Shown: positions 7,154 through 41,820 of the stretch, piece by piece
How the letters are laid out: the number at the start of each line of letters is the position of its first letter
Numbering within the stretch: position 1 is the first letter of the stretch
Assembly: GCA_007121535.1 (NCBI GenBank)
Contig: SKKK01000120.1
Coordinates: 1 to 43,346, forward strand
From: Planctomycetaceae bacterium
GTDB taxonomy: Bacteria > Planctomycetota > Planctomycetia > Pirellulales > Pirellulaceae
Direction of reading: 5' to 3'
Length of the DNA stretch: 43,346 nt
The notes under the pieces: generated by a model
The model's database searches: none
What the model saw: only the letters and a program-made list of their open reading frames with translations
What the model was told of the DNA's origin: nothing
Made by a program: the position numbers and the translations under genes

Positions 7154-8018
7154 TTTCTTTATTCCCTGATTCACCGACGACCTAAATGAAACTTCCGCTG
7201 CTGAACACCTTGGGACCTACGCGATCCTGACCGAAAGAATGTGAGGGCGATCCGATCGGAATGGACGTCCGGGACAGCCAATTGCAAATCGAGTTGCATG
7301 AATGCAGAACGATCCTTTGGTTATGGACGCCCCGAGCCGTAAGAAGTTCCGTTACGAACGGTACTTACGGCAAACCCATTCAATACACTACTCCACCATT
7401 CTACTTAAACCGCCTATGCGTCTCAAGTTCCTCATTTTAATCGGCCGGTGCCTCGCACTGGCCTATGTCATGGCACGGTTTTCCGACTGATCGTTGCATC
7501 AACGCCGTCATCAGCCTCATGACCGTCAACATCCGCACTTTTCTCCGAGAGTTGCCGACCAGCTTGATCGGCAAGTGAACCACGAAAATAAAACTTACGG
7601 AAGACAAGAGTCAGCCATAGGTACTGCTTTCATTGCCGATTGAGCTCTGCAGATATGGTTCGTGTATCGCTGCACTCGCCTGGGTGCGGCATCCCCACGG
7701 CTCGGCGACTTTGACTGCTCCGCAAATATGCAGATCTCACGCTTCGGGTTACGAAGTAATCCGGGTAAGGCGGCAAGAACTGCGAAGGCGCCCAAAGGGG
7801 GCATGGTGGGGGGGCTGTCGTTGCGCAAAGGAACTTGGAATCCCAGCCTTTCATTTTATTGGAAACCGCGTTATATTGGCACGCTTGTCGAACGGGATTC
7901 TTCGCGAAGGAATGTTGTGCGAGTCAGGCGTCGCTTCCCGGCACGTGAATGAGCTGATTATCGAAACAGGAACGCGGTGGCCCGCCCGCGCACCGCTTTT
8001 TCGGTGAGATCGAAGTCT
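7154..8018. other. Long intergenic region between divergent genes
   Basis: About 0.86 kb without a credible gene. The open frames here are short, lack ribosome binding sites and overlap one another on both strands. It must hold the promoters of the surface-protein gene (-) and the dehydrogenase/KAS III fusion gene (+), but I found no convincing -35/-10 pair, riboswitch or terminator. Confidence 0.6.
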
Positions 8019-11000
8019 ATGGATCGGAATCATCAACAGGCTCTCTATCGTGCTATGTTTACGGCACGGCGGATCGACGAGCTTGAGCACGAGATCACCA
8101 ATCGCGGCGAGGCCTTCTTCCACGTGCCGTGTAGCGGCCACGAGTCGATGGCGGCTTTGGCATTGCATTTGACTCCGGACGATTGGCTGCATTGCCATTA
8201 CCGCGACAAGGCCTTGTTGATCGCCAGGGGGATACCGCCTCGATCCCTGTTCGACAATCTTTACTGCAAGGACAGTTCCAGTTCACGCGGGCGGCAGATG
8301 AGTGGGTTTTGCAGCGACCCGCCGTTGCATGTCTTGAGCATGGTCACACCGGTCGCCAACAACGCCTTGCAGGCGGTCGGCGTCGCAGCAGCGATCCGCA
8401 ACCAGCCGTCGCGCCCTTTGGTGTACTGTGGCGTGGGGGACGGCACTACGCAACAAGGTGAATTCCTGGAAGGTTGCGGCGAAGCGGTACGCAGTCGATT
8501 GCCGGTGCTGTTGGTCGTCCAGAACAACCATTACGCGATCTCGACGACCACCGAAGGCCGTACGTTCTACTCGCTGACCGAAGGTCGGGCAGACTGTTTT
8601 TGGGGGATGCCGATTCGCTACGTCGACGGCCGCGACCCGTTGGCTCTGTATGATGCCTTTGGGCAAGCGGTCAGCGACATCCGTCAGACGCGCGGGCCGG
8701 CCCTGATGGTGGTCGATTTCGAGCGGCTGTCCAGCCACACCAACGCGGACGATCAGACGATTTATCGGCAAGCGGAAGAGTTGGAAATCGGCCGCTGCAA
8801 GGGCGATCCCCTGGCTAGGTTGAGAATTTGGCTGTTGAGCCATGGATGGACGGAGGATCAACTGGCGGAGATCGAGAACCAGGTCCAGATGCAATTGGAG
8901 GAAGCTGAGGAAGCGTCGGCTTTGGGTGCTGACCCGGAACCTGTTTTCGATGCAAAGAAACCCCTCCGAGTCGAATTGACTCATCCCTCTCGCGAGCAGC
9001 GGGGTTCGGAGCAGGGCCTGCAATTAATCATGCGGGACGCGATGCGGGCTGTGCTGCGGGATAAGCTGACGACCGATCCGCGAGTCGTGCTGTTGGGCGA
9101 GGACATCGAGGATCCCAAGGGCGACGTCTTTGGCGTCACCAAGGGTTTGAGCACGGAGTTTCCCGGGCGGGTGATGAATTCCGCGTTGTCCGAGGCGACC
9201 ATCTTGGGCTCGGCGATCGGACGGGCGGTGGCCGGTCAGCGGCCCGTTGCGTTCATTCAGTTCGCCGATTTCATGCCGCCTGGCTACAACCAGTTGACGA
9301 CGGAATTAGCCACGCTTTTCTGGCGCACCGGCGGCCAGGTCAACGTACCGGTGATCGTCATGATCGCGTGCGGTGGATATCGTCCCGGTTTGGGACCCTA
9401 TCACGCTCAGACGCTCGAGTCGGTCATCGCTCATGCGCCGGGCTTGGACGTGTTCATGCCCGCGACGGCCTGCGACGCTGCCGGTCTGTTGAACGCCGCT
9501 TTCCAGTCGGAACGACCGACGGTGATGTTGTATCCGAAAAGCCTGCTGAACAATCAGGAAGCGACCACGTCGGCCGACGTCGACCGCCAGTTCATCCCCA
9601 TCGGCACGGCGCGCAAAGTTCGCGGCGGCCGCGATCTGACTCTGGTCGGTTGGGGGAACACGGTCGGACTCTGCGGGCGAGTGGCCCTGGCCCTGGAATC
9701 GGCCGGGGTGGAAGCCGAAGTGATCGATCTGCGGTGCATTTCGCCATGGGACCAGCAAACCATCGTGGCTTCGGCCGAAAAGACTGCGCGGCTGATCGTC
9801 GTCCAGGAGGACAATCACACGTGTGGACTGGCCGCCGAAATCCTGGCCACCGTCGCCCAGCAGACTCGCGTCCCCGTAGCGATGCGTCGCGTCACTCGGC
9901 CGGATACCCACATCCCCTGCAATTTCGTCTGTCAAATGCAGGTCATGCCTTCGTTTCAGCGCGTGCTTGCCACGGCGGCCGAGTTGATGAACCTGGACCT
10001 GTCCTGGATCCCGGCGCCGCAGGTTGACGACGGAATGCATCTGGTCGAAGCCATCGGATCAGGCCCGTCCGACGACACCGTCGTGGTGGTGGAACTTCGA
10101 GCCGAGGTGGGCAGTCACATTCAGCGTGGCGAAGTGTTGGCTTCCTTGGAGGCGACCAAGAGTGTTTTCGAGATCACCTCGCCCGTTTCCGGAGTCCTGG
10201 AGGAGATCTTGGTCGCCGAAGGCGACGTGGTCGACGTGGGCACGCCCCTGCTGCGAATCAACACGGGCCAGACCAGCCGTCGTCCCAAGCCCATCACCCA
10301 GGAAACGTGCGGCACCCCCGTGCTCAGCCGACGCGCCACTTCGGGCACCTTGCACCTGCCCGCCCAATACCAGCAGCGGCGGCCGTTCTTCGTCGGCATG
10401 TCGCCGGTGGCCACGGTCACCGGCAGCCGCCTGGTGACCAACAGCGAACTGCTGACGGCGGATCGCATGAAGAACCTGAACGGCATGTCCGCCGAAGACA
10501 TCATTCGGCGAACCGGCATCGAGAGCCGCATGTGGGCCGGTTCCGGCGAAGACGCCGTCAACATGGCCGTCCAAGCCTGTTGGCAACTGATGGACCAACA
10601 GCAATTGATCGTCGACGATCTGGATCTGGTCATCTGCAGCACAACCAGTCCGACCACCGTCACCCCTTCGATGGCGTGCCAGATCCTCAATTCTCTGTGC
10701 CGTGGCAAGAGCGAGGTCATGACACAGGCCTACGATATCAACGCCGCTTGTTCGGGATACTTGTATGCCCTGCAGTCCGGCTTTGACTACCTGCAAAGCA
10801 CCCCGCACGGACGCGTCTTGATCGTCACGGCCGAAGTCCTTTCGCCCTTGCTGAATCCTGAAGATTTCGACACGGCCATCTTGTTCGGCGACGCCTCGTC
10901 GGCCACCATCCTGTACGGCGAAGCACACTTGGAACGAGCCCGAGCACGTTTGTATCGGCCCGATCTGGCAGCCAAGGGAGAAGACGGCAGCACGTTGACC

Positions 11001-11354
11001 GTGCCGTTGCTGCACGACGGCTATATCCAGATGAAAGGGCGACGGGTCTTCAGCGAAGCCGTGCGTTCGATGGTCGCCAGCCTGAACCGCGTCTGCGACC
11101 GCGAGCACATTCAGGTCAGCGACTTGAAGATGGTCATCCCGCACCAGGCCAACCAACGGATTATCGATGCCATCCAGGAACGGATTGGCGTCGACGTGTT
11201 CAGCAACATCCGCCGCTACGGCAATACTTCCTCGTCCAGCATCCCCTTGTGCTTGAACGATGTCTTACCGGGTGCCGTCACGGGAGACCGAATCGGGCTC
11301 TGCGCCTTCGGCGGCGGCTTCACGTTCGGCGCCAGCATTCTGGAAGCCAGTTAG
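8019..11354 (+). CDS. Fusion: 2-oxoacid dehydrogenase E1alpha-E1beta + lipoyl domain + 3-oxoacyl-ACP synthase III, 1111 aa
   Basis: The ATG at 8019 (MDRNHQQALYRAMFTARRID) matches the usual E1alpha N-terminus; an upstream in-frame GTG at 7977 adds only atypical residues. Residues about 5-320 are E1alpha with the thiamine-diphosphate motif GVGDGTTQQGEF...NNHYAIS near 138-165. About 333-665 is E1beta (MRDAMRAVLRDKL, GEDIEDPKGDVFG). About 685-755 is a biotinyl/lipoyl domain with candidate lipoyl-lysine K714 in LEATKSVFEI. About 785-1111 is a complete KAS III (FabH-like) with catalytic C911 (AACSGY), H1042 (PHQANQR) and N1069 (YGNTSSSS), spaced much as in FabH. An E2 acyltransferase core and E3 are absent. 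Family knowledge: E1 decarboxylates branched 2-oxoacids and acylates lipoate; KAS III condenses acyl thioesters with malonyl-ACP. Inference: the chain makes and elongates a branched starter for lipid or polyketide-like synthesis. deoC lies 85 bp downstream. Confidence 0.9.
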   Translation: MDRNHQQALYRAMFTARRIDELEHEITNRGEAFFHVPCSGHESMAALALHLTPDDWLHCHYRDKALLIARGIPPRSLFDNLYCKDSSSSRGRQMSGFCSDPPLHVLSMVTPVANNALQAVGVAAAIRNQPSRPLVYCGVGDGTTQQGEFLEGCGEAVRSRLPVLLVVQNNHYAISTTTEGRTFYSLTEGRADCFWGMPIRYVDGRDPLALYDAFGQAVSDIRQTRGPALMVVDFERLSSHTNADDQTIYRQAEELEIGRCKGDPLARLRIWLLSHGWTEDQLAEIENQVQMQLEEAEEASALGADPEPVFDAKKPLRVELTHPSREQRGSEQGLQLIMRDAMRAVLRDKLTTDPRVVLLGEDIEDPKGDVFGVTKGLSTEFPGRVMNSALSEATILGSAIGRAVAGQRPVAFIQFADFMPPGYNQLTTELATLFWRTGGQVNVPVIVMIACGGYRPGLGPYHAQTLESVIAHAPGLDVFMPATACDAAGLLNAAFQSERPTVMLYPKSLLNNQEATTSADVDRQFIPIGTARKVRGGRDLTLVGWGNTVGLCGRVALALESAGVEAEVIDLRCISPWDQQTIVASAEKTARLIVVQEDNHTCGLAAEILATVAQQTRVPVAMRRVTRPDTHIPCNFVCQMQVMPSFQRVLATAAELMNLDLSWIPAPQVDDGMHLVEAIGSGPSDDTVVVVELRAEVGSHIQRGEVLASLEATKSVFEITSPVSGVLEEILVAEGDVVDVGTPLLRINTGQTSRRPKPITQETCGTPVLSRRATSGTLHLPAQYQQRRPFFVGMSPVATVTGSRLVTNSELLTADRMKNLNGMSAEDIIRRTGIESRMWAGSGEDAVNMAVQACWQLMDQQQLIVDDLDLVICSTTSPTTVTPSMACQILNSLCRGKSEVMTQAYDINAACSGYLYALQSGFDYLQSTPHGRVLIVTAEVLSPLLNPEDFDTAILFGDASSATILYGEAHLERARARLYRPDLAAKGEDGSTLTVPLLHDGYIQMKGRRVFSEAVRSMVASLNRVCDREHIQVSDLKMVIPHQANQRIIDAIQERIGVDVFSNIRRYGNTSSSSIPLCLNDVLPGAVTGDRIGLCAFGGGFTFGASILEAS

Positions 11355-19785: not shown

Positions 19786-19811
<26 letters not shown>
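18894..19811 (+). CDS. thiL: Thiamine-monophosphate kinase, 305 aa
   Basis: ThiL phosphorylates thiamine monophosphate to the diphosphate cofactor using ATP. It has the family's N-terminal start (MESEFLRWLDRHLPEHPRFL), the ATP/Mg motif GPGDDAAVLRW, TSDMLHDGTDF, the glycine-rich IAGGDTNSWDGPVVISVTAIG, and DVSDGLSLDLAHV with a late GDGEDFELIL. Length is close to the E. coli enzyme (325 aa), so it looks complete. It follows the HtrA gene closely and converges on the UvrA gene; the last 26 bp of each overlap. The product cofactor is what the E1 part of the dehydrogenase/KAS III fusion needs, but the two genes are 7.5 kb apart, so this is only a loose link. Confidence 0.92.
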
Positions 19812-26808
<6,997 letters not shown>

Positions 26809-27010
26809 GGGTTCCTGAAGCGAGTCGTCGGGATGGTCGGCGGCTGAAACGCGATATTGTAGCCTGCCGACCAGCGATTCAGAAAGCCGCCGCAGAACCG
26901 ATTGGCGAATCTCGCTACGGCGGATACGATCAAGGGTCACATGGTCGTACCTTGATGGACCTCGATGCGGTCAGGAGTGACACATGGTTCCCGAGAAAGT
27001 TTAGCAGATC

Positions 27011-31527: not shown

Positions 31528-33201
31528 TCATGAATCCACCGTCTTGTTCGGAACATAACCTCTGATGCGTCGATCGTAGTGCATCTGGCTGTAGTCATAC
31601 GGGTCGCCGGCCGTCGGTGGATTCTCAAAGTTACGCGGTGACGGCGGCGATGTCGTCTGCCATTCCAGCGAAGCGCTGCCCCAAGGATTGGAAGGTGCTC
31701 GTCTTCCCGCGATCAGCGAGTGCAGCAATACCAGCCCCACCAGCAACAAGCCCCCACCCAGGATCAAGGCTCCGACCGTCGACAATTGGTGCAGGCCCTG
31801 AAATTCGAGCTCGTAGCGAGCGTAGCGGCGCGGCATCCCTCGGGTGCCCAACACGAACTGTGGCAGGAACGTGGCGTTAAACCCGACGAAAGTAATCAAG
31901 CAGCCCAAACGGCCCCACGCATCGTTGTACATCCGCCCGAACATCTTGGGCCACCAGTAGTGCAGTCCGCCCAAGAACGCAATCAACGTACCGCCCACCG
32001 TCACGTAATGGAGGTGGGCCACCACGAAGTAAGTGTCGTGCAAATGGATGTTCGTCGCCAAAGCTCCCAGAAACAATCCGCTCAAACCTCCGATGCCGAA
32101 AAGCAGTAAGAAGCACAAGGCGTAGCACATGGGAGTCTGCAGCCGGATCGAGCCCTTGTACATCGTGGCCAACCAATTGAAAACTTTGATTCCCGAGGGG
32201 ATCGATACGCTGAACGTCAACGCGCTGAAGATGAAAGAGGCCAGGGCGGATTGGCCGCTGACGAACATGTGATGGCCCCAGACCAAAAAGCCCAGCAGAG
32301 CGATCGCGATACTGCTGTACGCGATGAACCGGTACCCGAAAACGGGCTTGCGGCTGAAGACCGACATCAATTCGCTGATGATCCCCATCGCGGGCAGGAT
32401 CATAATATAAACCGCCGGATGCGAATAGAACCAGAAAAAATGCTGGAACAAGATCGGGTCGCCGCCCAAATTCGGATCGAAAATCCCGACTCCGAACACC
32501 AGTTCGGCCGTCAGCAGCAGCACGGTGATGCCCAGCACGGGCGTGGCCAACAATTGGATGATCGCCGTCGCGTACAACGACCACATGAACAGCGGCATCT
32601 TGAACCAGGTCATCCCCGGCGGGCGCATCGTGTTGATGGTCACGACGAAATTCAGCCCTGTGAATATCGAACTGAACCCGAGAATGAATATGGCCACCAT
32701 GGCGGCCAACACCACATAGCTCGTCTGCGTGCTGTACGGCGTGTAAAAAGTCCAACCGGTATCCAGTCCGCCGACAACCAAAGCGAGCAGGAAGAAGAAA
32801 GCCCCCGCCATCCACAAGTACCAACTGAACAAAGTCATACGCGGGAAGGCAAGATTCTTCGCACCCAGCATCAATGGCAACACGAAATTACCCAATGCCG
32901 CTGGAATGCCGGGGATGATGAACAAAAAGATCATCACCGCCCCATGTACCGTGAAGAACTCGTTGTACTGGTTTTCCGTCAAGAACATCTGGTGGGGCGT
33001 GAACAATTCCGCTCGCATCAACATCGCCATGATCCCACCCAACAGGAAGGACGACAGGATGCCGATCAGATACATGACCCCGATCCGTTTGTGGTCCAGG
33101 GTCGTCAGCCATGACATGATGCCGCAATCGTGCGTCAAGTAGTCCACGGCGAGCGCTTCGCCGTGTCCGGCCCCATGCGCCGAAAACGCGTCCGTAGCCA
33201 T
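31528..33201 (-). CDS. ctaD: Cytochrome c oxidase subunit I, A2-type, 557 aa
   Basis: The catalytic subunit of an aa3/caa3-type haem-copper oxidase, an integral membrane protein with about 12 helices. Haem a ligand: [10 protein letters not shown]. The CuB/tyrosine motif is [19 protein letters not shown], CuB histidines are in WGHHMFVSG, and haem ligands are in [13 protein letters not shown]. The motif YSHPxVY (alanine where A1 enzymes have the helix-VI glutamate of GHPEVY) places it in the A2 class by the Pereira scheme, so the D-channel endpoint differs. The K-channel region [14 protein letters not shown] is present. The start ATG lies 13 bp after the stop of the SCO-CoxII-cytochrome c gene, so they form one operon. 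I see no subunit III or IV in the window; subunit III would be encoded elsewhere. Confidence 0.95.
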
Positions 33202-33214
33202 AAAGGTGTCTCGT

Positions 33215-35131
33215 TCACTTCAAGGTCTTGATGAATGCAATCAACGCGTCGATCTCTTCCTCGCGAATCTGACTTGCATACGTAGGCATCACCGGTCGGT
33301 AACCGGCGCGGATATCCGCCATGGGTTCCAAGATCGACCTGCGGATGTAGTTTTCGTCCACCAGGATACGCCTGCCGTCGGCCATCTCGTGCTTCGCGCC
33401 GAAGATTCCTTTTAAGGTGGGGCCGCTACGAGCCGACCCGTCGATCGAGTGACATTGAGCGCATCCCTTTCGCTGGTACACAATCCGACCACCTTCTTCG
33501 GGCGACACTCCCTCCAGGAAGCTCGCCGCGTCGGTCAACCATCGTTCGAAGTCGCCGGAGGGATGCACGACCACTCGAGCCAACATGGTCGAATGCTGCT
33601 CGCCGCAGTACTCCGCGCACAGCAGGGTGTACTCGCCGACTCGATTCGGTTGGAACCAGGTCGTGGTGTACCGGTCGGGCAATACGTCCATCTTCACGCG
33701 AAACGCGGGGATGAACAGGCTGTGGATCACATCCTGCGACGACATGATCAGCCGGACCGGACGATTCACGGGAAGGTGCAGATCCGGGTCGCGGTGCCCG
33801 TTGGCATAGACGAATTCCCACGTCCACTTTCGAGCCAAGACGCGGATTTCGTAGGCGTTGGCGGGCGGTTGCCTCATATCGAAATAGGCGCCAAAGCCCC
33901 ACAAGAAGATCACGGCGACGATGATCGTCGGGATGACCGACCAGAGGATCTCCAGAAAGGTGTTGTGCGTTGGAGATTCCTGCGCTTCATGGCCCTCCCG
34001 GTGCCGGTACTTGATCACAAACAGCATCATTACGCCGACGACGATGGCAAAGAAGATCGTCGACACCCACAGGATGAAGAAGAACAGTCCATCGACGGGT
34101 CCCGCAAGATCCGAGGCTGCTTCCGGAAAAAAGAAGTTGTTTCCGTACGCAGTTTGTGCCAGGGGCAACGGTACCACAGGCATCATCGATGATGATGAAT
34201 CCAACGACGGTTTCTCGTCGCCGGCTTCCTCGAGCAAACTCTCCTTATCCTGGTGCTGTGCAAATGACGCAGCTACGGTGGTGGACGGTCCGTGATGGGC
34301 GACACTTCCCGGAGCCTTCCGCCACAACCAAACGGGCACCAGCGTGATGATCAGCACCAGCAGCGTCAGTGCACCGCCGAAACGCATGAGTCTTACGGCC
34401 ACCGGTCCGTACTGCCCCGTCGTAGCGTCCCAGCCGAAACAAAACAGCAGGATGCGATCCATGCTCGATCCGATTTTGCCCTCGCCCGCTTCCACCAACG
34501 AAAGCTGCAACGTGATAGGTTCAAAGTAAACACCGTCCAGATACCGCGAGATCACCCCGTCAGGCGTGCAAAAGACAAACGTGGCTGCGTGAGCATACTC
34601 GCCTTGTTCCGGGACAAACGTGTAACGATAACCGATGGCATCGGCCAACGCCTTGATATTCGCTTGTCTACCCACCCAAAAATGCCAGCCCGACGCCGCT
34701 TCCGGCTTTCCGTAAGCCTGGACGTACTGCTGCTTGGTCAAACGGGCTCGTTCGGGCGTCTCCGTCGGGTCGATGCTGACACTTAGAATCTCGAAGTCTT
34801 TCCCGGGCATCAACGAAACATCCTGAAGACCGTCAACCAAACCGTTCAACTGCAGCATGCACAGCATCGGACAATCCGAGTAGGTCATGGTCAGGATCAC
34901 AGGACGGTCCTGATGAAACAACCGGCTCAACGTCACATCCTCGCCCCGCTCGTTGCGGAACGCCAGATCCAGAGGCAAGCGGTCTCCCAGTTTCTCATCG
35001 ATTCCCACCTCGGAGACTTCCTCCGGCGCGCGGTCGATCCGTTGAGCCGAAATCGGCGTCGCGGGTAGTACGAACAAAACGGCAAGAGTGACGAACAATC
35101 GTCCACCCGATTCGATTTTTCCCGCAATCAT
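33215..35131 (-). CDS. SCO + cytochrome c oxidase subunit II + cytochrome c triple fusion, 638 aa
   Basis: AGGAG seven bases before the ATG at 35131 fixes the start ([20 protein letters not shown], a signal peptide). Residues about 35-225 are a SCO1/SenC copper chaperone: YSDCPMLC with C87 and C91, and metal histidine H181 in [11 protein letters not shown] membrane helix near 250 ([17 protein letters not shown]) and a low-complexity linker lead to CoxII: two helices (about 325-400), [12 protein letters not shown], and a CuA site with [11 protein letters not shown] and [12 protein letters not shown] (near 500). The C-terminus is a class I cytochrome c with CAQCH near 553 and a distal methionine candidate in [12 protein letters not shown]. 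Known: SCO metallates CuA; cytochrome c fused to CoxII defines caa3 oxidases. A SCO domain in the same chain is unusual: chaperone and client are covalently joined. No stop or shift separates the parts. Confidence 0.9.
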
Positions 35132-35135
35132 GTCT

Positions 35136-35318
35136 TCACTCCTGATCGGCCAGGCTCTGCGTTTCTTCGACGACCTGTTCCATAGCCCGATCGATGGGGA
35201 CCGGCAACACGAAGGCGGAATTCTCCACGAATTGGTCACCCGCTACGATCTGGATCAACGCGCACCCCGTCTCGTCTGCCAGAGCGAACGAGGTATCTCT
35301 TCCCGGTAAACGGTTCGA
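35136..35318 (-). pseudogene. Possible gene remnant upstream of the oxidase operon
   Basis: A 60-codon frame ends at TGA 35136-35138, seven bases before the SCO fusion start and overlapping its Shine-Dalgarno. It reads LPGRDTSFALADETGCALIQ, then VAGDQFVENSAFVLPVPIDR and AMEQVVEETQSLADQE. It has protein-like composition but no ATG/GTG start: it is closed by TGA at 35319. It may be the 3' end of a broken oxidase-operon gene, or chance. Family unknown. Confidence 0.3.
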
Positions 35319-35776: not shown

Positions 35777-38700
35777 TTATCGCTTGCGTTTCTCGGGCAC
35801 CTGGGCTTCTTCATAGCGGGGCGGATCGCCCCGGGTGACTCGCTGCCACGCGGTCTGATAAAGGTGGCCCAGCGTGTCGCTGCAACAAATCAATTCCGCG
35901 TAGTAACCGCGGAATGCCTCGATCGATTCGTAACCGTACAGCGGCAGCTTCCAGCTTTCGATCGGCAGGTTGGGCAGCGATAAAGCTTCCCAACCACCCG
36001 GCAAAAACAGGTCGCGACCGGCTCGCGATCGTTTGGCTTGCACCACCAATTCCCGTTCCAGCAGTTCCTGACTCGCCTGATTCAACTGCTTGGCGGACCA
36101 CTCGTTCCAACGGCGGACGTTCTTGGTCGTCGGATCGGGCAGCGTAAGCAACTGCAAGTACAGGGCTGCTGCTTCGGGACTGAGCGAGTGCTGCCGGGCG
36201 ACTGCGGTGACGGTCTCCGGTGATGAAAGTCGCGGATCCTGGTCCCATTTGCCGTCCGGCACGGGCGATCGTTCGTTCCAGTCGTGGATTCGCTGGAACG
36301 CCTGGCTGCGAAAACTCCGGACGCCGACGGCGGCATCCAATTGCGATTCGCCGGAAACCTGGTAATCGTACGTCACCGCAGCTACCGCCCGGATACGTTG
36401 AAAATCGGCTTCGGTCTTCAAGCCCGAGGTGCGAAACAGGCAGACAACGTGCGGCGGCACCAATCCCACCACGATCAATCCATCGTCGGCTTGGTGGAGG
36501 CCCTGCGAGTTCTTTTCCAAGCGACCGACCAGTTGGCCGAAGTTGGACAGGGCAGTTTCGGTATCGACGGTTGCGTAGCTGTCCAACTGGGAATACTCGC
36601 CACCAAAAGGCAGCATCGTATCGGGGTGATCCAACAGCTCCCGGACGGTTCGAATCAGATCCGGAATCCGACGCCGCCATTCATGTCCGGCCGGTAACAC
36701 GTAGGCCGTCATCGCGATCGATCGTTCCAGGCGACTCAAGAAAGTCGCCCCCTCCAAGTTCCAAGGCGGGTCGTACCGCACCTTCAGCGGTTGGTAGTCA
36801 CGCTTGCCATCGCTCAACGTGATCTTGGCTTTTCGTGGACGCAGATCGCCCGCTTGGGCCGGCGCCGCAATCAGTTCCGTAAACCGTTGCGTGGAAAAAG
36901 TGCGGTCTCCTTTGTTGACCTTTTCCAACACGACGGCCAGTTCCGGCGGGACGGGTGTGGCAACTGTCGCCGAGACCTGCCGTTTCGCTTGCCAAGCCGT
37001 CATCATCCGCCGCACCGCCATACTCAGCTTTTCGCCAAAGGGATTCGACGGATTGGCGCGGGCAAACGCGCAGCCGACATTCGGGGGCGCTGGCTGGGCA
37101 TCCAATTGCGCCAGCGCAACCTGAATGTCTTTGACCTTCCAGCGGTAATGGTCTCGAATCTCTTTCGTCAGTTTCTCTTGGCCGTAGTGTGTCGTCCGCA
37201 GGTTGCTCATGAAGGTGATGGCCACGGCGATGGGATGCATGCCCAGTTCTTCGGCAGCTTGCTCCAAGTCCTGCGGATCGGGCAGTGGAATCGCCTCGAT
37301 CTTTTCCACTGCTTTCACAAACGCTTTCAGACTCGCGGCGCTCCACGAACGCTTGATCGGGATCGTCTGCTCGACGACCATGCCTTTGGGCGGCTTGGGT
37401 TTGTTCTTCACCGACCGCTCCAAGACCACCAGGAAGTCTGACATAAAATTATCGAAACGATAAACCACATAGCGGCTATCGCCGGCAACCAATCCGATCG
37501 GTTTGCCTGCTTTGACTTGGTCGCTCAAGCCGGCTTTGGATTGTTTCCCGGCGGACTCGGAACTGGCCGCGGGGCCGACGTACAGACATAGCCCCTCCGT
37601 AAAACTCAGCAGTCCACAATCGGCGAACATCCTGAGAGCATCCAGCCATGGTGTACGCAAGCGTTCCGGGACGGTGCTGCCCAGTTCTTCGTTGCTCACC
37701 GTCTCCCAAAAGCATCGGTAGGCAACAGCCACCGTATCGGTCAGCAAAGCATACCAATTGAGATTGATGGGCGGCAACTCGTCCAAGTCTGCCCCCCCGA
37801 GAAACCTACCCACCGCATGCAGGTGTTCCACGGCATTCGAGCTTTCTTCGTGATAGCCGTGGACGTAGATCGTATCGCTCAGATCGAAATCCAAGTGCGG
37901 CTTCAACTGGGATAGTCCCTCGTTGGCTCGTTCCCGAATCGCCTGCTGCTGTGCGGCATCGGCGGCGGCTTGCTGGTCGCTGCTGCTGGCTTGTTGACAA
38001 AACGTGACCAGTTTCCTGAGCGTCAGTCGTTCGTCGGCAGCGACTCGCAGCAACGAAGATAGCCCTTGAACCAATCGTGGGGGTGCCCCCTGCAGCCATG
38101 CCGCGACAGCGGTGGCTCCCGCCATCCGATTCGGGTCGGGAGCGTTCGGGTCTTCCTTCTGCTTCTTCGCTTCCAACTCGATCGACCCCGCCTCCAACAA
38201 ACCTTCTGCCTGTTTTCGCGTGACCGTCCGCAACTTTTCCGAGCTGGCAGGATGTCGCAATCGCATGAAATGAAAGTACAGCGGTTCCAATTCGAAGGAC
38301 TGCCCCGCTTGATAGTTCTTCAGCGAAACGCCGGAGATCAAGATTTTGGTTGCCTGATCGATCACTTCGCCATGGTTGTTCACCATCCAATAGCCGTCAG
38401 CGGCCGGTTTATCCATCAGGGCGACGGGAGCCACGAAACCACCGCCCGCGTGTTCCGAGGCGTCCATCGTCACCGAGCGCCCGTCCACACCCGTCGCCTC
38501 GATCGTGCCATCGCGACGGCGGACGACGCGCCAGCCGATCAGCCCGTCGTGCGTCCCTAAAGGCGACTTTCCGCTCATGGGCGGACAAGGCAGCAGCGTC
38601 GACCACGAGTACACGATCCGAGCGCCCGCCGGAAGCTGTTGTTCGAAAAACGGGGGGATGCTGTCGCGAATCGGCTTACCCGAATGCGGGTCCAGCTCGC

Positions 38701-40900
38701 GGCAGCGCTGATCCGCCAACTGCTTTTCCAGCGGTTCGTCGCTCCACATGGCAAACGATTCCTCGAACTTCCAGACTCGGGTGCCATCGCAAAACCAATT
38801 GGCGTCGAACGTCACGAGTTTTTCGTCACCCGGCATGATCGTCCGCACCCCGGTGAACCAACTGCCATCGGACATTCGGGCCATGGGCAGGACGGAGTTG
38901 TAACCGAAGTAGACTTCCGTCTGTTTGGCCGCTTCCTGCTTCTGGCTCAGCCAGCGCCAGTAGGTCTTCCAGTGATCATCGTGAAAGACGACAATCACGT
39001 CGTCGCCGACCGGCAACAAATGTTGGAGCGTATGGCCTTTTTTCAACACCAGGGATCGCCCCGGGTGCGCCGATTCCGGGCCCACCACGTGTACTTCTCC
39101 TTGGTTGTAGTAGGCCAGCCAGGGAAAGACCAAGTCGTACCTTCGCTCGTAACGGTTACGGGTCCGAAGCATCGGGGATTCGTCCGCCCGCCGATCCAAC
39201 GCTTCCCAGCCGTATTCGTCAAACACGCCCGCCAGCAAGGAACGCTGGAGGTTATCCACCACGTCGATCTTTTCCAGGCGGGCCGTCAGTTCCGGAAATT
39301 GGAGCACGGTCCCCGTACCAACGCATTTGCGTAGTTGTTTCAATGCAGTTTCCAGCTCGAACAAGCCCCCGGATTCCAGTTCCCCCAAGCGCTGTTCCAA
39401 AAACCGCCACCAATACCGCTTGACTGCAGGATGATCCACCACAGCGGCCTCGAAGGATCGCCGCTGAGCCACGTTCCGCCCGTAACTCTGAGCAGTTGCC
39501 GCTTCGCCTTTGAAGGTGACCAATTCCTCCATCGCTTTGGTCAGGGCATCCGTGAAACGGGAGTCGGCCGCCAGGGCTTCCAGTTGGGAATTGCGCCGTG
39601 AATGGTCGGGGAATTCACGCAGCCAACCGGAGAAGTCCAGGTCGCATTGGGCCGTTTCGTCGCTCACCGGGATTCCCAGTTGCAGGCAGGCTTCCAAAAC
39701 GTCGACGTCCACCCACTTTTGCCATCGCGATGCCGGTTTCAGGTTGACCGGAAGGCCTTCGGCGACAAGCACGTCGGCCATCGCTTCCAGCAGTTCGAAC
39801 ACACGTTTGGCCGGGGATTGTTCCACGGTGGCCAGGCGCGAAATCCAGCCCGCGCGGCCTCCGGGGATTTCCACGTCACGGGGTAATTGGTCGGCCGGTT
39901 TCCACAGCCAAGGCAGCACGTCCCACGCTTCCAGCAAATCCAGCCAAGCCCATACCAAACTTTCATCGGTATAACGAGCTTGCGGATTGGTATGCGCCAA
40001 CAACCAGACGGCGAACGAATCGCTGCGCCGGGCGACGGCTCCCGCTTGCTTTTGGACCGACTTCCAGAATTGCAACGGAGCCCGAACCATCGCGGGCGAA
40101 CGGATGATCGCTTCCAGAAACGATTCCACTTCGGTGTCGACATCCAATCCCGCCGCTTTGGCCAAACGGATCAGATCGTTCCCCGCATTGCCCGTCGGCG
40201 CCATGCCGCCCATCGTCCGCCGGACGAGCAGATCGCGATAGGTCTCGTAGGCTTCCTGAGGCGGAAACTGGACGGCCAAGTCTTTCGAGTAATCCGAAAG
40301 CGCTTTTCCCGAAAGGCAACCGCCCAGGGAGAACTCCAGCACGGCGTCGCGACGGTGTTCGCGGTCGAGTTCCAACGCGTGAACCCGTTCGGCTTCCAAC
40401 GCTTTATTGAGCGCTCGACCGGCATAGGTCAGATTGCCCAACGATTTGAACGAACGGGCGACTTGTTCCCAGTACGGAGGAAGAAAATGGCGTACCGACT
40501 TGTTCAATTCATCCGCCATCGCCGCGTACAGATCCCAAGCGTGTCCGGGTTTGGCGGCCGCTCGCCGCTGGGCACTCTTCATGCGTTTGACCAGGTCCAG
40601 CGCGTAACGAGCCTGCTGGGGCTGGTGGATCAACGCCCAGTGAGCGAAATCCAACGCCGTCCGGTGCTGTTGAGCGATCGGTGGGCTGGTCCCTTGGGGC
40701 TGGAAGCCCAAGTATTCCATGGCCAGATCCTCGGCCGCGACCAGGCGATCGGAGCTGAGCTTGACCACCACCCGCGGCCCCAGAGCGGCTGCCGAGTAGC
40801 TGCGCGCCACGATGGTTTCCGTCGTCGCCGCATCGCACTTTGCTTTGGCCGGCGCGAAACCACCGGCGTCCAATTGACGCTGCCATTGTTGCTTCTTCAT
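35777..40900 (-). CDS. Very large protein of unknown function, 1707 aa, partner of DUF4132
   Basis: The ATG at 40900 overlaps the upstream stop by four bases (ATGA), so translation is coupled; the open frame continues to 41704 but only as a shadow of the upstream gene. There is no signal peptide or membrane helix. Residues about 60-330 are helical and TPR-like (HWALIHQPQQARYALDLVKR, YAGRALNKALEAERVHAL). About 580-830 holds short beta repeats with YNQGEVHVVGPESAHPG, VIVVFHDDHWKTYW and a GWRVVRRRDGTIEATGVDGR-like turn, suggesting a beta-propeller. The C-terminal third is charged, with AEKIEAIPLPDPQDLEQAAE-type helices and VNKGDRTFSTQRFTEL. I see no P-loop, nuclease or protease motif. I recall large proteins of this kind paired with DUF4132 in actinobacteria and myxobacteria, sometimes beside MoxR/VWA genes; none of those genes is in this window. 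Function unknown. Confidence 0.85.
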   Translation of the reverse strand: MKKQQWQRQLDAGGFAPAKAKCDAATTETIVARSYSAAALGPRVVVKLSSDRLVAAEDLAMEYLGFQPQGTSPPIAQQHRTALDFAHWALIHQPQQARYALDLVKRMKSAQRRAAAKPGHAWDLYAAMADELNKSVRHFLPPYWEQVARSFKSLGNLTYAGRALNKALEAERVHALELDREHRRDAVLEFSLGGCLSGKALSDYSKDLAVQFPPQEAYETYRDLLVRRTMGGMAPTGNAGNDLIRLAKAAGLDVDTEVESFLEAIIRSPAMVRAPLQFWKSVQKQAGAVARRSDSFAVWLLAHTNPQARYTDESLVWAWLDLLEAWDVLPWLWKPADQLPRDVEIPGGRAGWISRLATVEQSPAKRVFELLEAMADVLVAEGLPVNLKPASRWQKWVDVDVLEACLQLGIPVSDETAQCDLDFSGWLREFPDHSRRNSQLEALAADSRFTDALTKAMEELVTFKGEAATAQSYGRNVAQRRSFEAAVVDHPAVKRYWWRFLEQRLGELESGGLFELETALKQLRKCVGTGTVLQFPELTARLEKIDVVDNLQRSLLAGVFDEYGWEALDRRADESPMLRTRNRYERRYDLVFPWLAYYNQGEVHVVGPESAHPGRSLVLKKGHTLQHLLPVGDDVIVVFHDDHWKTYWRWLSQKQEAAKQTEVYFGYNSVLPMARMSDGSWFTGVRTIMPGDEKLVTFDANWFCDGTRVWKFEESFAMWSDEPLEKQLADQRCRELDPHSGKPIRDSIPPFFEQQLPAGARIVYSWSTLLPCPPMSGKSPLGTHDGLIGWRVVRRRDGTIEATGVDGRSVTMDASEHAGGGFVAPVALMDKPAADGYWMVNNHGEVIDQATKILISGVSLKNYQAGQSFELEPLYFHFMRLRHPASSEKLRTVTRKQAEGLLEAGSIELEAKKQKEDPNAPDPNRMAGATAVAAWLQGAPPRLVQGLSSLLRVAADERLTLRKLVTFCQQASSSDQQAAADAAQQQAIRERANEGLSQLKPHLDFDLSDTIYVHGYHEESSNAVEHLHAVGRFLGGADLDELPPINLNWYALLTDTVAVAYRCFWETVSNEELGSTVPERLRTPWLDALRMFADCGLLSFTEGLCLYVGPAASSESAGKQSKAGLSDQVKAGKPIGLVAGDSRYVVYRFDNFMSDFLVVLERSVKNKPKPPKGMVVEQTIPIKRSWSAASLKAFVKAVEKIEAIPLPDPQDLEQAAEELGMHPIAVAITFMSNLRTTHYGQEKLTKEIRDHYRWKVKDIQVALAQLDAQPAPPNVGCAFARANPSNPFGEKLSMAVRRMMTAWQAKRQVSATVATPVPPELAVVLEKVNKGDRTFSTQRFTELIAAPAQAGDLRPRKAKITLSDGKRDYQPLKVRYDPPWNLEGATFLSRLERSIAMTAYVLPAGHEWRRRIPDLIRTVRELLDHPDTMLPFGGEYSQLDSYATVDTETALSNFGQLVGRLEKNSQGLHQADDGLIVVGLVPPHVVCLFRTSGLKTEADFQRIRAVAAVTYDYQVSGESQLDAAVGVRSFRSQAFQRIHDWNERSPVPDGKWDQDPRLSSPETVTAVARQHSLSPEAAALYLQLLTLPDPTTKNVRRWNEWSAKQLNQASQELLERELVVQAKRSRAGRDLFLPGGWEALSLPNLPIESWKLPLYGYESIEAFRGYYAELICCSDTLGHLYQTAWQRVTRGDPPRYEEAQVPEKRKR

Positions 40901-41820
40901 TCCGCTTGCTCCTCGACCTTGCGTTTGGCATAGATGGCCGCTGCCATTCGCACGCCTTCGCTGAACGTGACGGGGCCGACTTCCTTGATGGGAGCCGCTT
41001 GTTGGTCGGCGCCCACAAACAACAGTTCCCCGGTTTCGGTCTCTGCTTCGGGATACTCGCCACCGACGTAATATCGTGCTTCCAACGGCTGCTGGCCCTC
41101 CCAGACGCGACACGTCGCATAGCCTCCACGGACGGGATACCTCAAGCGACGGCAGACACCCAAGGCAAAATTCAGTTGCTCGAATCGGCCCCCTTCGTAA
41201 TCCCGGATCGCCCGCAACTCGAGCAACTCGTCTCGCACTTGATACACCGGTCGGTAAAGCTGCTCGATCGCCTGCTGGACGTTCAGATCGCTGGCCAGTT
41301 CGCGAAGATCGTCCAAATCGTCGATCAGAATCGGATGGGGAATCGACACCAGCGGCTGCTTCAACCACTGGCTTTCTCCATCGACGTCGACGATGCCCAA
41401 TCCTCGTTGGGGATGGATGTCCTTCAGCAATCCCTTTTTTTCGGAGTCCGTATCTCCTTGGGCATCGGCGGGCGCGATCACGACGTTTTCCAGTGCAGCT
41501 CGCCAAGCGGGATCGGGCCAAACTTCGCAAACCACCTCGCGGGGCACCAGCAGCGACCGCAACATCCATCGTTCCACCGTGTGGCGGCATTCCAACTCGT
41601 GTTCGTCCAGCCAGGCGGCCAGCGCCGACAATTGTTGTACCGCTTCGGACTCCTTCAGCCACGCGGGCAGGGACGCCAAGCGTTTGCCTTTGGGATTCCT
41701 GCACACCAGCTTTCCGTTGTCCAGTCCGATCGAGTACTCCCTTTCGGCCGGCTGCCAGAAAACGTCTTCGGTATCACCCGTTTCGTGCTTCGCCTTCGTA
41801 CCTTTGGAACGTTTCGCCAT
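40897..41820 (-). CDS. DUF4132 domain protein, 307 aa
   Basis: The ATG at 41820 (MAKRSKGTKAKHETGD) has GGGGAG about ten bases upstream. After a charged N-terminus, the protein shows the sequence expected of DUF4132 (the family of E. coli YehI/MolR): KLVCRNPKGKRLASLP, ALAAWLDEHELECRHTVERW, VCEVWPDPAWRAALENVVI, RGLGIVDVDGESQW, IPHPILIDDLDDLREL and GGYATCRVWEGQQPLEARY, ending PVTFSEGVRMAAAIYAKRK. The family has no established biochemistry. It is translationally coupled to the 1707-aa gene, so the products probably act together. Intergenic sequence upstream (41821-41912) is short. Confidence 0.85.
   Translation of the reverse strand: MAKRSKGTKAKHETGDTEDVFWQPAEREYSIGLDNGKLVCRNPKGKRLASLPAWLKESEAVQQLSALAAWLDEHELECRHTVERWMLRSLLVPREVVCEVWPDPAWRAALENVVIAPADAQGDTDSEKKGLLKDIHPQRGLGIVDVDGESQWLKQPLVSIPHPILIDDLDDLRELASDLNVQQAIEQLYRPVYQVRDELLELRAIRDYEGGRFEQLNFALGVCRRLRYPVRGGYATCRVWEGQQPLEARYYVGGEYPEAETETGELLFVGADQQAAPIKEVGPVTFSEGVRMAAAIYAKRKVEEQAE

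Follow-up and report, generated by a model that had tools for sequence, protein, structure and literature searches.

An E1-lipoyl-ketosynthase fusion found in planctomycetes and other bacteria, a candidate 2-oxo-acid-primed beta-ketoacyl-ACP synthase

Fatty-acid synthesis is normally primed by acyl-coenzyme A (acyl-CoA) through FabH, a beta-ketoacyl-acyl carrier protein (ACP) synthase III (KAS III). The planctomycete contig SKKK01000120.1 (43,346 nt, the whole of which was analysed and is termed here the window) carries a gene whose product places a KAS III behind the E1alpha, E1beta and lipoyl parts of a 2-oxo acid dehydrogenase. This arrangement raises the question of where such a ketosynthase obtains its acyl group. 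The answer for which we argue, and which the sequence comparisons described below make somewhat probable, is that the fusion would act as a self-contained 2-oxo-acid-primed beta-ketoacyl-ACP synthase. In the proposed cycle, the E1 half, dependent on thiamine pyrophosphate (TPP), would decarboxylate a 2-oxo acid and reductively acylate the lipoyl group carried by K714. Borne on flexible linkers, the lipoyl domain would then swing over to the KAS III and deliver the acyl group to C911, replacing the acyl-CoA of FabH, and the KAS III would condense it with malonyl-ACP to a 3-oxoacyl-ACP entering ordinary fatty-acid synthesis. Re-oxidation of the dihydrolipoyl group would fall to a lipoamide dehydrogenase (E3) whose gene lies elsewhere. 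A branched acyl group would give rise to a branched primer, formed without free acyl-CoA.

Domain layout and predicted structure of the fusion

The gene lies in a (+) strand frame that is free of stops from 7977 to 11354. A GTG at 7977 is a possible alternative start upstream of the ATG at 8019, and 22 orthologues align with the fusion beginning at residue 1 or 9. A sequence-only reading of the window had placed E1alpha, E1beta, a lipoyl domain and a KAS III in one uninterrupted frame, which was borne out by the open frame and by Pfam domain matches (Table 1). The same reading had stated that the E2 acyltransferase core is absent and that the KAS III follows the lipoyl domain directly; indeed, a Pfam search of the fusion chain at E 0.01 returned no match to this core (2-oxoacid_dh, PF00198). 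The lipoyl-bearing chain therefore combines E1alpha and E1beta parts having a TPP motif, a lipoyl lysine and a KAS III triad, and is devoid of the E2 core.

Residue conservation was examined in 102 fusion proteins, of which 87 were left after discarding duplicates, defined by identity over the last 400 residues. The input included three contig-edge proteins lacking E1alpha, together with the lipoyl-KAS frame of a split locus (L102), and left out L094, which has no lipoyl part, and L052. K714, C911, H1042 and N1069 had been numbered correctly and each of them is identical in all 87 non-redundant proteins. The predicted TPP motif G140-D-G142...N170 was likewise recovered, with G140, G142 and N170 present in 80/80 proteins and D141 in 75/80, counts at E1 positions omitting the 7 of the 87 proteins that do not reach them. 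As regards the type of ketosynthase, NCBIfam PRK09352 ("beta-ketoacyl-ACP synthase 3") matched residues 800-1109 barely above its cut-off (251.4 vs 249). The fabH model TIGR00747 scored 217 bits, under its cut-off of 292.1, and the remaining NCBIfam matches shown were also below theirs; all NCBIfam matches were to single domains of the chain.

An AlphaFold2 model built from 48 family members reached a mean predicted local distance difference test score (pLDDT) of 89.2, the lowest confidence being found at residues 775-787, inside the lipoyl-KAS linker. The E1beta part of the model superposed on the Thermus branched-chain E1beta 1um9_B (Z 44.5, root mean square deviation 1.4, 319 residues aligned) and on the E1beta of pyruvate dehydrogenase (Z 44.4), and the KAS part on E. 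coli FabH 1hn9 (Z 42.1, root mean square deviation 1.8, 305 residues aligned). Domain search and structure prediction of the chain, both proposed as checks by the sequence-only reading, thus agree with the parts it had named. Invariant positions make up 4% of the lipoyl-KAS linker as compared to 25% of the KAS part (19 aligned rows). Throughout the family the lipoyl domain measures 74-75 residues and is flanked by stretches of 24-29 and 42-80 residues; such a constant length between variable flanks is what a swinging arm needs.

Table 1. Features of the fusion gene. Positions are those of contig SKKK01000120.1 and residues are counted from the ATG at 8019.
Feature	Position	Strand	Remarks
Whole gene, E1alpha-E1beta-lipoyl-KAS III fusion	8019..11354	+	1111 aa
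E1alpha domain (TPP-binding), residues 8-300	8040..8918	+	Pfam E1_dh 10-299, 1e-42; nearest solved chain 1um9_A
E1beta domain, residues 335-655	9021..9983	+	Pfam Transket_pyr 338-511, Transketolase_C 529-632
Lipoyl domain, residues 674-748	10038..10262	+	Pfam Biotin_lipoyl 688-747, 2.9e-14; beta strands in the model
K714, predicted lipoylation site within E-A-T-K-S	10158..10160	+	K in 87/87 family members
Lipoyl-KAS linker, residues 749-795	10263..10403	+	Family range 42-80 aa, median 47
KAS III (FabH-type) domain, residues 796-1111	10404..11351	+	Pfam ACP_syn_III 905-968, ACP_syn_III_C 1026-1109
D827, at the position of E. coli FabH Trp32 (CoA adenine stacking)	10497..10499	+	Alignment
C911, predicted condensing cysteine	10749..10751	+	87/87
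S1012, at the position of E. coli FabH Lys214	11052..11054	+	Alignment
H1042, KAS III triad	11142..11144	+	87/87
N1069, KAS III triad	11223..11225	+	87/87

Occurrence and integrity of the family

A survey of planctomycetes for the same fusion, also suggested by the sequence-only reading, gave a positive answer: the fusion was found in 21 of 60 related genomes, its own included, with one copy lying in two overlapping frames and another cut by a contig end. In an even sample across the phylum it was detected in 5 of 392 genomes at E 1e-50, again including its own. Additionally, 84,980 species genomes were scanned with two conserved KAS III peptides, which yielded 502 stretches related to the lipoyl-KAS query. 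The figures that follow concern the best 80 of these 502 stretches, the remaining 422 of which may include ordinary KAS IIIs. According to the record titles, the best 80 comprise 48 planctomycetes, 13 spirochaetes, 9 Alphaproteobacteria (Devosia, Rhizobium cauense and others), 3 Gammaproteobacteria, 2 Sumerlaeota, 2 Lentisphaerae, 2 Verrucomicrobia and 1 cyanobacterium. Since 76 of the 80 records are titled as metagenome-assembled genomes (MAGs), a taxon standing alone, e.g. the cyanobacterium, could owe its place to faulty binning; the four records without this title come from a Planctomycetales isolate, Devosia insulae, Devosia sp. Root413D1 and Rhizobium cauense. Outside the planctomycetes the occurrence is patchy: the fusion was present in 9 of 296 Spirochaetota genomes, search centre included, and, among 150 genomes of the order to which Devosia belongs, in the search centre alone.

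All four domains, or parts of them, lie in a single open frame in 75 of the 80 loci, a few of which are cut N-terminally by a contig end. Of the five remaining loci, four have a contig edge as their starting point, and L102, which is identical to locus L052, is divided by a frame change. Furthermore, an unrooted tree groups the E1 halves of 17 diverse fusions in a single clade with a support of 100/100. Two further groups appear in it, one of E1-E2 pairs together with Streptomyces E1s and the other of Bkd, Pdh and other E1s. The tree does not give sister relations and was used for monophyly only, with otherE1_L190 (wrong frame, huge branch) and ownE1_L194 (long branch) retained. We conclude that the E1alpha-E1beta-lipoyl-KAS III fusion is a genuine family, present in several bacterial phyla.

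Individual loci showed irregularities. A planctomycete copy (genome G017, L052:8861-12320) is broken into two frames and a spirochaete copy (genome G809, L198:5826-9300) into three, by sequencing error or by decay. An extra E1alpha-like piece upstream of the fusion in L125 (5137-5763) and an extra KAS III-like piece downstream of it in L110 (8792-9130) are possible remnants of duplications.

Loading of the ketosynthase

In FabH, the adenine of CoA is sandwiched between Trp32 and Arg151, as described in the excerpt cited (PMC4606726). The position of Trp32 is occupied in the 87 fusions by Asp (74), Glu (10), Ser (2) or Gln (1) and never by Trp. Lys is found at the position of Lys214 in a single fusion and Arg at that of Arg151 in none, whereas Cys112, His244 and Asn274 (E. 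coli FabH numbering) are kept in 87/87, as is Arg249. We take Lys214 and Arg249 to be residues contacting ACP or CoA. Two sets of unfused enzymes were used for comparison. The 30 best matches to the genome's own FabH among relatives, own included, served as housekeeping FabHs, a choice that favours residue retention; they have Trp32, Lys214 and Arg249 in 30/30 each, and the acyl-CoA primer site as found in these enzymes is missing from the fusion KAS III. The second set consisted of 19 secondary unfused KAS IIIs, one per genome; one of them, L213, was counted in spite of its misalignment at the triad. These differ from the fusion by having Arg151 in 17/19 and Trp at the Thr28 position in 11/19; Arg249 is found in 3/19 and is replaced by Lys in 13/19. 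Secondary KAS IIIs of these planctomycetes include one on contig C576 of genome G000 (L004) and L199-L217.

As judged from these alignments, the fusion is set apart by the joint loss of Trp32, Arg151 and, save in one protein, Lys214, with Arg249 fixed. A direct transfer from lipoyl to ketosynthase would leave the CoA-binding part of FabH free to decay, with the triad and the ACP contact kept. The loss of Trp32 and Lys214 is in this sense suggestive of a CoA bypass and is not a proof of it. The fusion KAS III probably does not hold CoA in the manner of FabH, and this pattern would not by itself prove a transfer from the lipoyl group.

The genomic complement of E2 cores bears on the same point. 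An E2 core acting from a nearby gene was looked for, as the sequence-only reading had advised: there is none on this contig, and the four E2-core matches of the genome are all on other contigs. The genome also encodes, above cut-off, a lipoyl synthase (LipA) and three E3 matches (TIGR01350), the latter not on this contig, and lipoylation and re-oxidation are therefore possible. The nearest relatives of the fused E1alphabeta that have an adjacent E2 were found in 9 of the 60 genomes (L027-L035). They are 35-38% identical to the fusion E1, and are followed by a lipoyl-E2 gene where the fusion has its lipoyl-KAS III. The fusion and these pairs never occur in the same genome (60 genomes, matches at E 1e-60), a mutual exclusion with a P of 0.014 that treats genomes as independent, ignoring kinship, and that concerns a class picked after the list had been seen. 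It hints that the lipoyl-KAS III took the place of E2.

Taken together, these comparisons support, without proving it, the CoA bypass, from 2-oxo acid through acyl-lipoyl and C911 to 3-oxoacyl-ACP, as the best reading. We would lean slightly towards the wider proposition that this is a widespread family of ketosynthases loaded from a lipoyl arm rather than from CoA or ACP, and converting a 2-oxo acid to 3-oxoacyl-ACP on one polypeptide free of CoA. If this is true, fatty-acid or polyketide synthesis would have a new point of entry and lipoate would have a new chemical role, and the fusion would supply a compact tool for producing branched or other unusual lipids that does not depend on pools of acyl-CoA. 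The lasting fusion, across several phyla, of a lipoyl domain with a KAS III that lacks the usual CoA contacts would also find an explanation.

Related systems, gene surroundings and alternative readings

The conventional counterpart of the fusion is the combination of Bkd E1, E2 and E3 with FabH, which shares the E1 folds, the lipoyl domain, the KAS III fold and the overall chemistry but releases acyl-CoA by means of an E2 core, whereas the fusion has no E2 core and misses the usual CoA-contact residues. Closer arrangements were met in Streptomyces. In searches of plasmid records the best-scoring E1s were Streptomyces proteins, and the two examined are about 37% identical to the fusion E1. As in the fusion, their E1alphabeta is fused, and a lipoyl domain heads a polyketide synthase/nonribosomal peptide synthetase (PKS/NRPS) protein; unlike in the fusion, the E1 is a separate gene, and the lipoyl domain is separated from the ketosynthase by an E2-like domain and an ACP. 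These plasmid genes (L156:7929-18196 and L157:7908-17917) adjoin PKS/NRPS proteins starting with lipoyl-E2-ACP-ketosynthase, an arrangement that had no match in the literature among the matches listed. The genes beside L156 presumably resemble streptogramin B precursor genes. The starter of pristinamycin II is given as isobutyryl-CoA in the excerpt cited (PMC6963833).

Loading of a carrier protein from a lipoyl group is described for QncN/QncL (quinocarcin) and, by homology, for SclQ1-4 (scleric acid). According to the cited excerpt (PMC6335953), QncN/QncL/QncM and SclQ1-4 resemble the fusion in that TPP-dependent E1 halves and a lipoyl domain supply the acyl group. They differ from it, as far as that excerpt describes them, in that the acyl group ends on an assembly-line ACP and an E2-type acyltransferase is kept, the fusion having neither E2 nor ACP; the substrate proposed there is a ketose phosphate, and the fusion stands apart from them by this description. 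Nor do QncN/QncL-type systems have a KAS III directly after the lipoyl domain. The nearest kin of the fusion are thus lipoyl-based loading systems of antibiotic assembly lines, in which the E2 domain is kept. The sequence-only reading had left room for a long-known characterisation of the same architecture; neither the architecture nor its product had a match in open-licence literature among the matches listed. The apparent novelty lies in the lack of an E2 and in a ketosynthase, without the usual CoA contacts, that comes right after the lipoyl arm, in a family apparently undescribed.

In the window, the fusion lies between a DeoC-like aldolase gene and an opposite-strand cadherin/dockerin frame of 1802 residues. 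Among 20 close loci, no neighbour was common to at least three and a few were common to two close relatives. In 39 distant loci, neighbours recurred within lineages only, at most in 9 loci (aconitase in spirochaetes). Twenty neighbours chosen from six lineages were compared with Pfam: 6 had no match and the other 14 included CreD, aconitase, NeuB, peptidase M23, NAD kinase, kinases, TIR, helicase-like and uncharacterised families, Ig-like domains and an apolipoprotein N-acyltransferase N-terminal domain (L126). No biosynthetic cluster was seen around these loci, and none of the 14 Pfam-matched neighbours belongs to polyketide or fatty-acid synthesis. The neighbour survey proposed by the sequence-only reading recovered the fusion itself and only lineage-local neighbours. 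As this conservation was lineage-local and the neighbours were unrelated, clues to function from gene neighbours were rejected. A gene without conserved partners would fit an enzyme that works with the general machinery of fatty-acid synthesis and receives ACP, reductases and E3 in trans, and the product of the fusion, whose neighbours are kept only within lineages, probably feeds general fatty-acid synthesis. A single copy, in a planctomycete MAG (L109:9327-11855), continues in frame after the KAS III with a ketoreductase (KR) and an ACP, the next step expected once the condensation is done, and beyond the ACP with some 260 residues to which no Pfam family matched at 0.1. Its motif GIDSM is, we assume, the carrier motif.

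A number of observations weigh against our interpretation. Two copies of the fusion are broken by frame changes. Other possible CoA contacts persist in the fusions (Arg36 in 62/87, Asn247 and Arg249 in 87/87), and in 14 of the 87, of which 13 are spirochaetal, a Trp at the Thr28 position might stack the adenine instead. Arg151 is found in just 3/30 housekeeping FabHs, and Lys214, as we understand it, may serve ACP docking besides CoA. The secondary unfused KAS IIIs are also mostly without Trp32 (present in 3/19) and Lys214 (1/19), so that this loss is not peculiar to the fusion, which lowers our confidence in the bypass. Moreover, an additional and more distant E1alphabeta, 27-30% identical, occurs in 8 of the 21 fusion genomes and is adjoined by an E2 core in 7; together with the E2-core genes elsewhere in the genome, this means that acyl-CoA is probably available and that the fusion is no substitute for all E2s. 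As to the substrate, the E1beta subunits of pyruvate dehydrogenase and of branched-chain 2-oxo acid dehydrogenase tie in the structure match, and to our knowledge two of the carriers, Devosia and Rhizobium, are not known for branched membrane lipids. The retained contacts, the secondary KAS IIIs and the four E2-core genes would all suit a channelling with CoA, in which a separate E2 or direct chemistry makes acyl-CoA and the fused KAS III draws on the local pool, so that the fusion would do no more than increase the concentration on the spot. This is nevertheless quite unlikely, given that the E2 core is absent from both chain and contig, that Trp32, Lys214 and Arg151 are gone save for one Lys, that housekeeping FabHs uniformly keep the first two and that even the secondary KAS IIIs mostly keep Arg151. 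Direct hand-over from the lipoyl group to C911, as suggested by the sequence-only reading, thus gains from the missing E2 core, the lost CoA contacts and the copy with KR and ACP, and loses from the secondary KAS IIIs that share the loss of Trp32 and Lys214. Chance juxtaposition, an assembly artefact or a decayed gene could account for the two frame-broken relatives and has a practically negligible probability in view of the intact loci, the invariant catalytic residues and the high mean pLDDT; chance or misassembly was excluded by the survey of the 80 best loci.

The remaining alternatives concern what is transferred and where the product goes. Both E1 halves have the Thermus branched-chain enzyme 1um9 as their nearest solved relative by sequence. 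A branched starter, as the sequence-only reading would have it, agrees with this match, whereas the structural tie fits branched-chain and pyruvate dehydrogenases equally, on account of which the attempt to derive the substrate from structure was dropped. A short branched acyl group, e.g. isobutyryl, is our first choice with about even chances. That the substrate would instead be pyruvate (giving an acetyl primer), another non-branched 2-oxo acid or a ketose phosphate is unlikely. The tie speaks for it, as do the ketose phosphates thought to be used by other E1-lipoyl systems in the excerpt cited (PMC6335953). Thr replaces Phe87 in 82/87 fusions, which would point the same way, though it does likewise in 12/30 housekeeping FabHs. 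In E. coli FabH, Phe87 is, we believe, the gate of the acyl pocket. Against a non-branched substrate stands the sequence match of both halves, and the separate FabH of the genome could already provide an acetyl primer. More credible, if still doubtful, is a specialised polyketide or lipid pathway in which the product is handed to a dedicated carrier instead of fatty-acid synthesis. The patchy spread in Spirochaetota and in the order of Devosia and the KR and ACP extension of one planctomycete copy are compatible with it; the lack of a biosynthetic cluster and the lineage-local neighbours argue for our reading, in which the 3-oxoacyl-ACP would join general fatty-acid synthesis.

Elsewhere in the window, on the (-) strand, an open frame of 1975 aa (35780-41704), in which Pfam gave no match at 1e-6, may encode a large secreted protein or be no gene. 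A cytochrome oxidase pair lies at 31531-35239 (-), the subunit II frame of which also has SCO1/SenC and cytochrome c domains. Finally, a 2384-aa frame at 19786-26940 (-) carries two UvrA units in one chain, with two stretches each of UvrA_inter and UvrA_DNA-bind, followed by a further C-terminal stretch.

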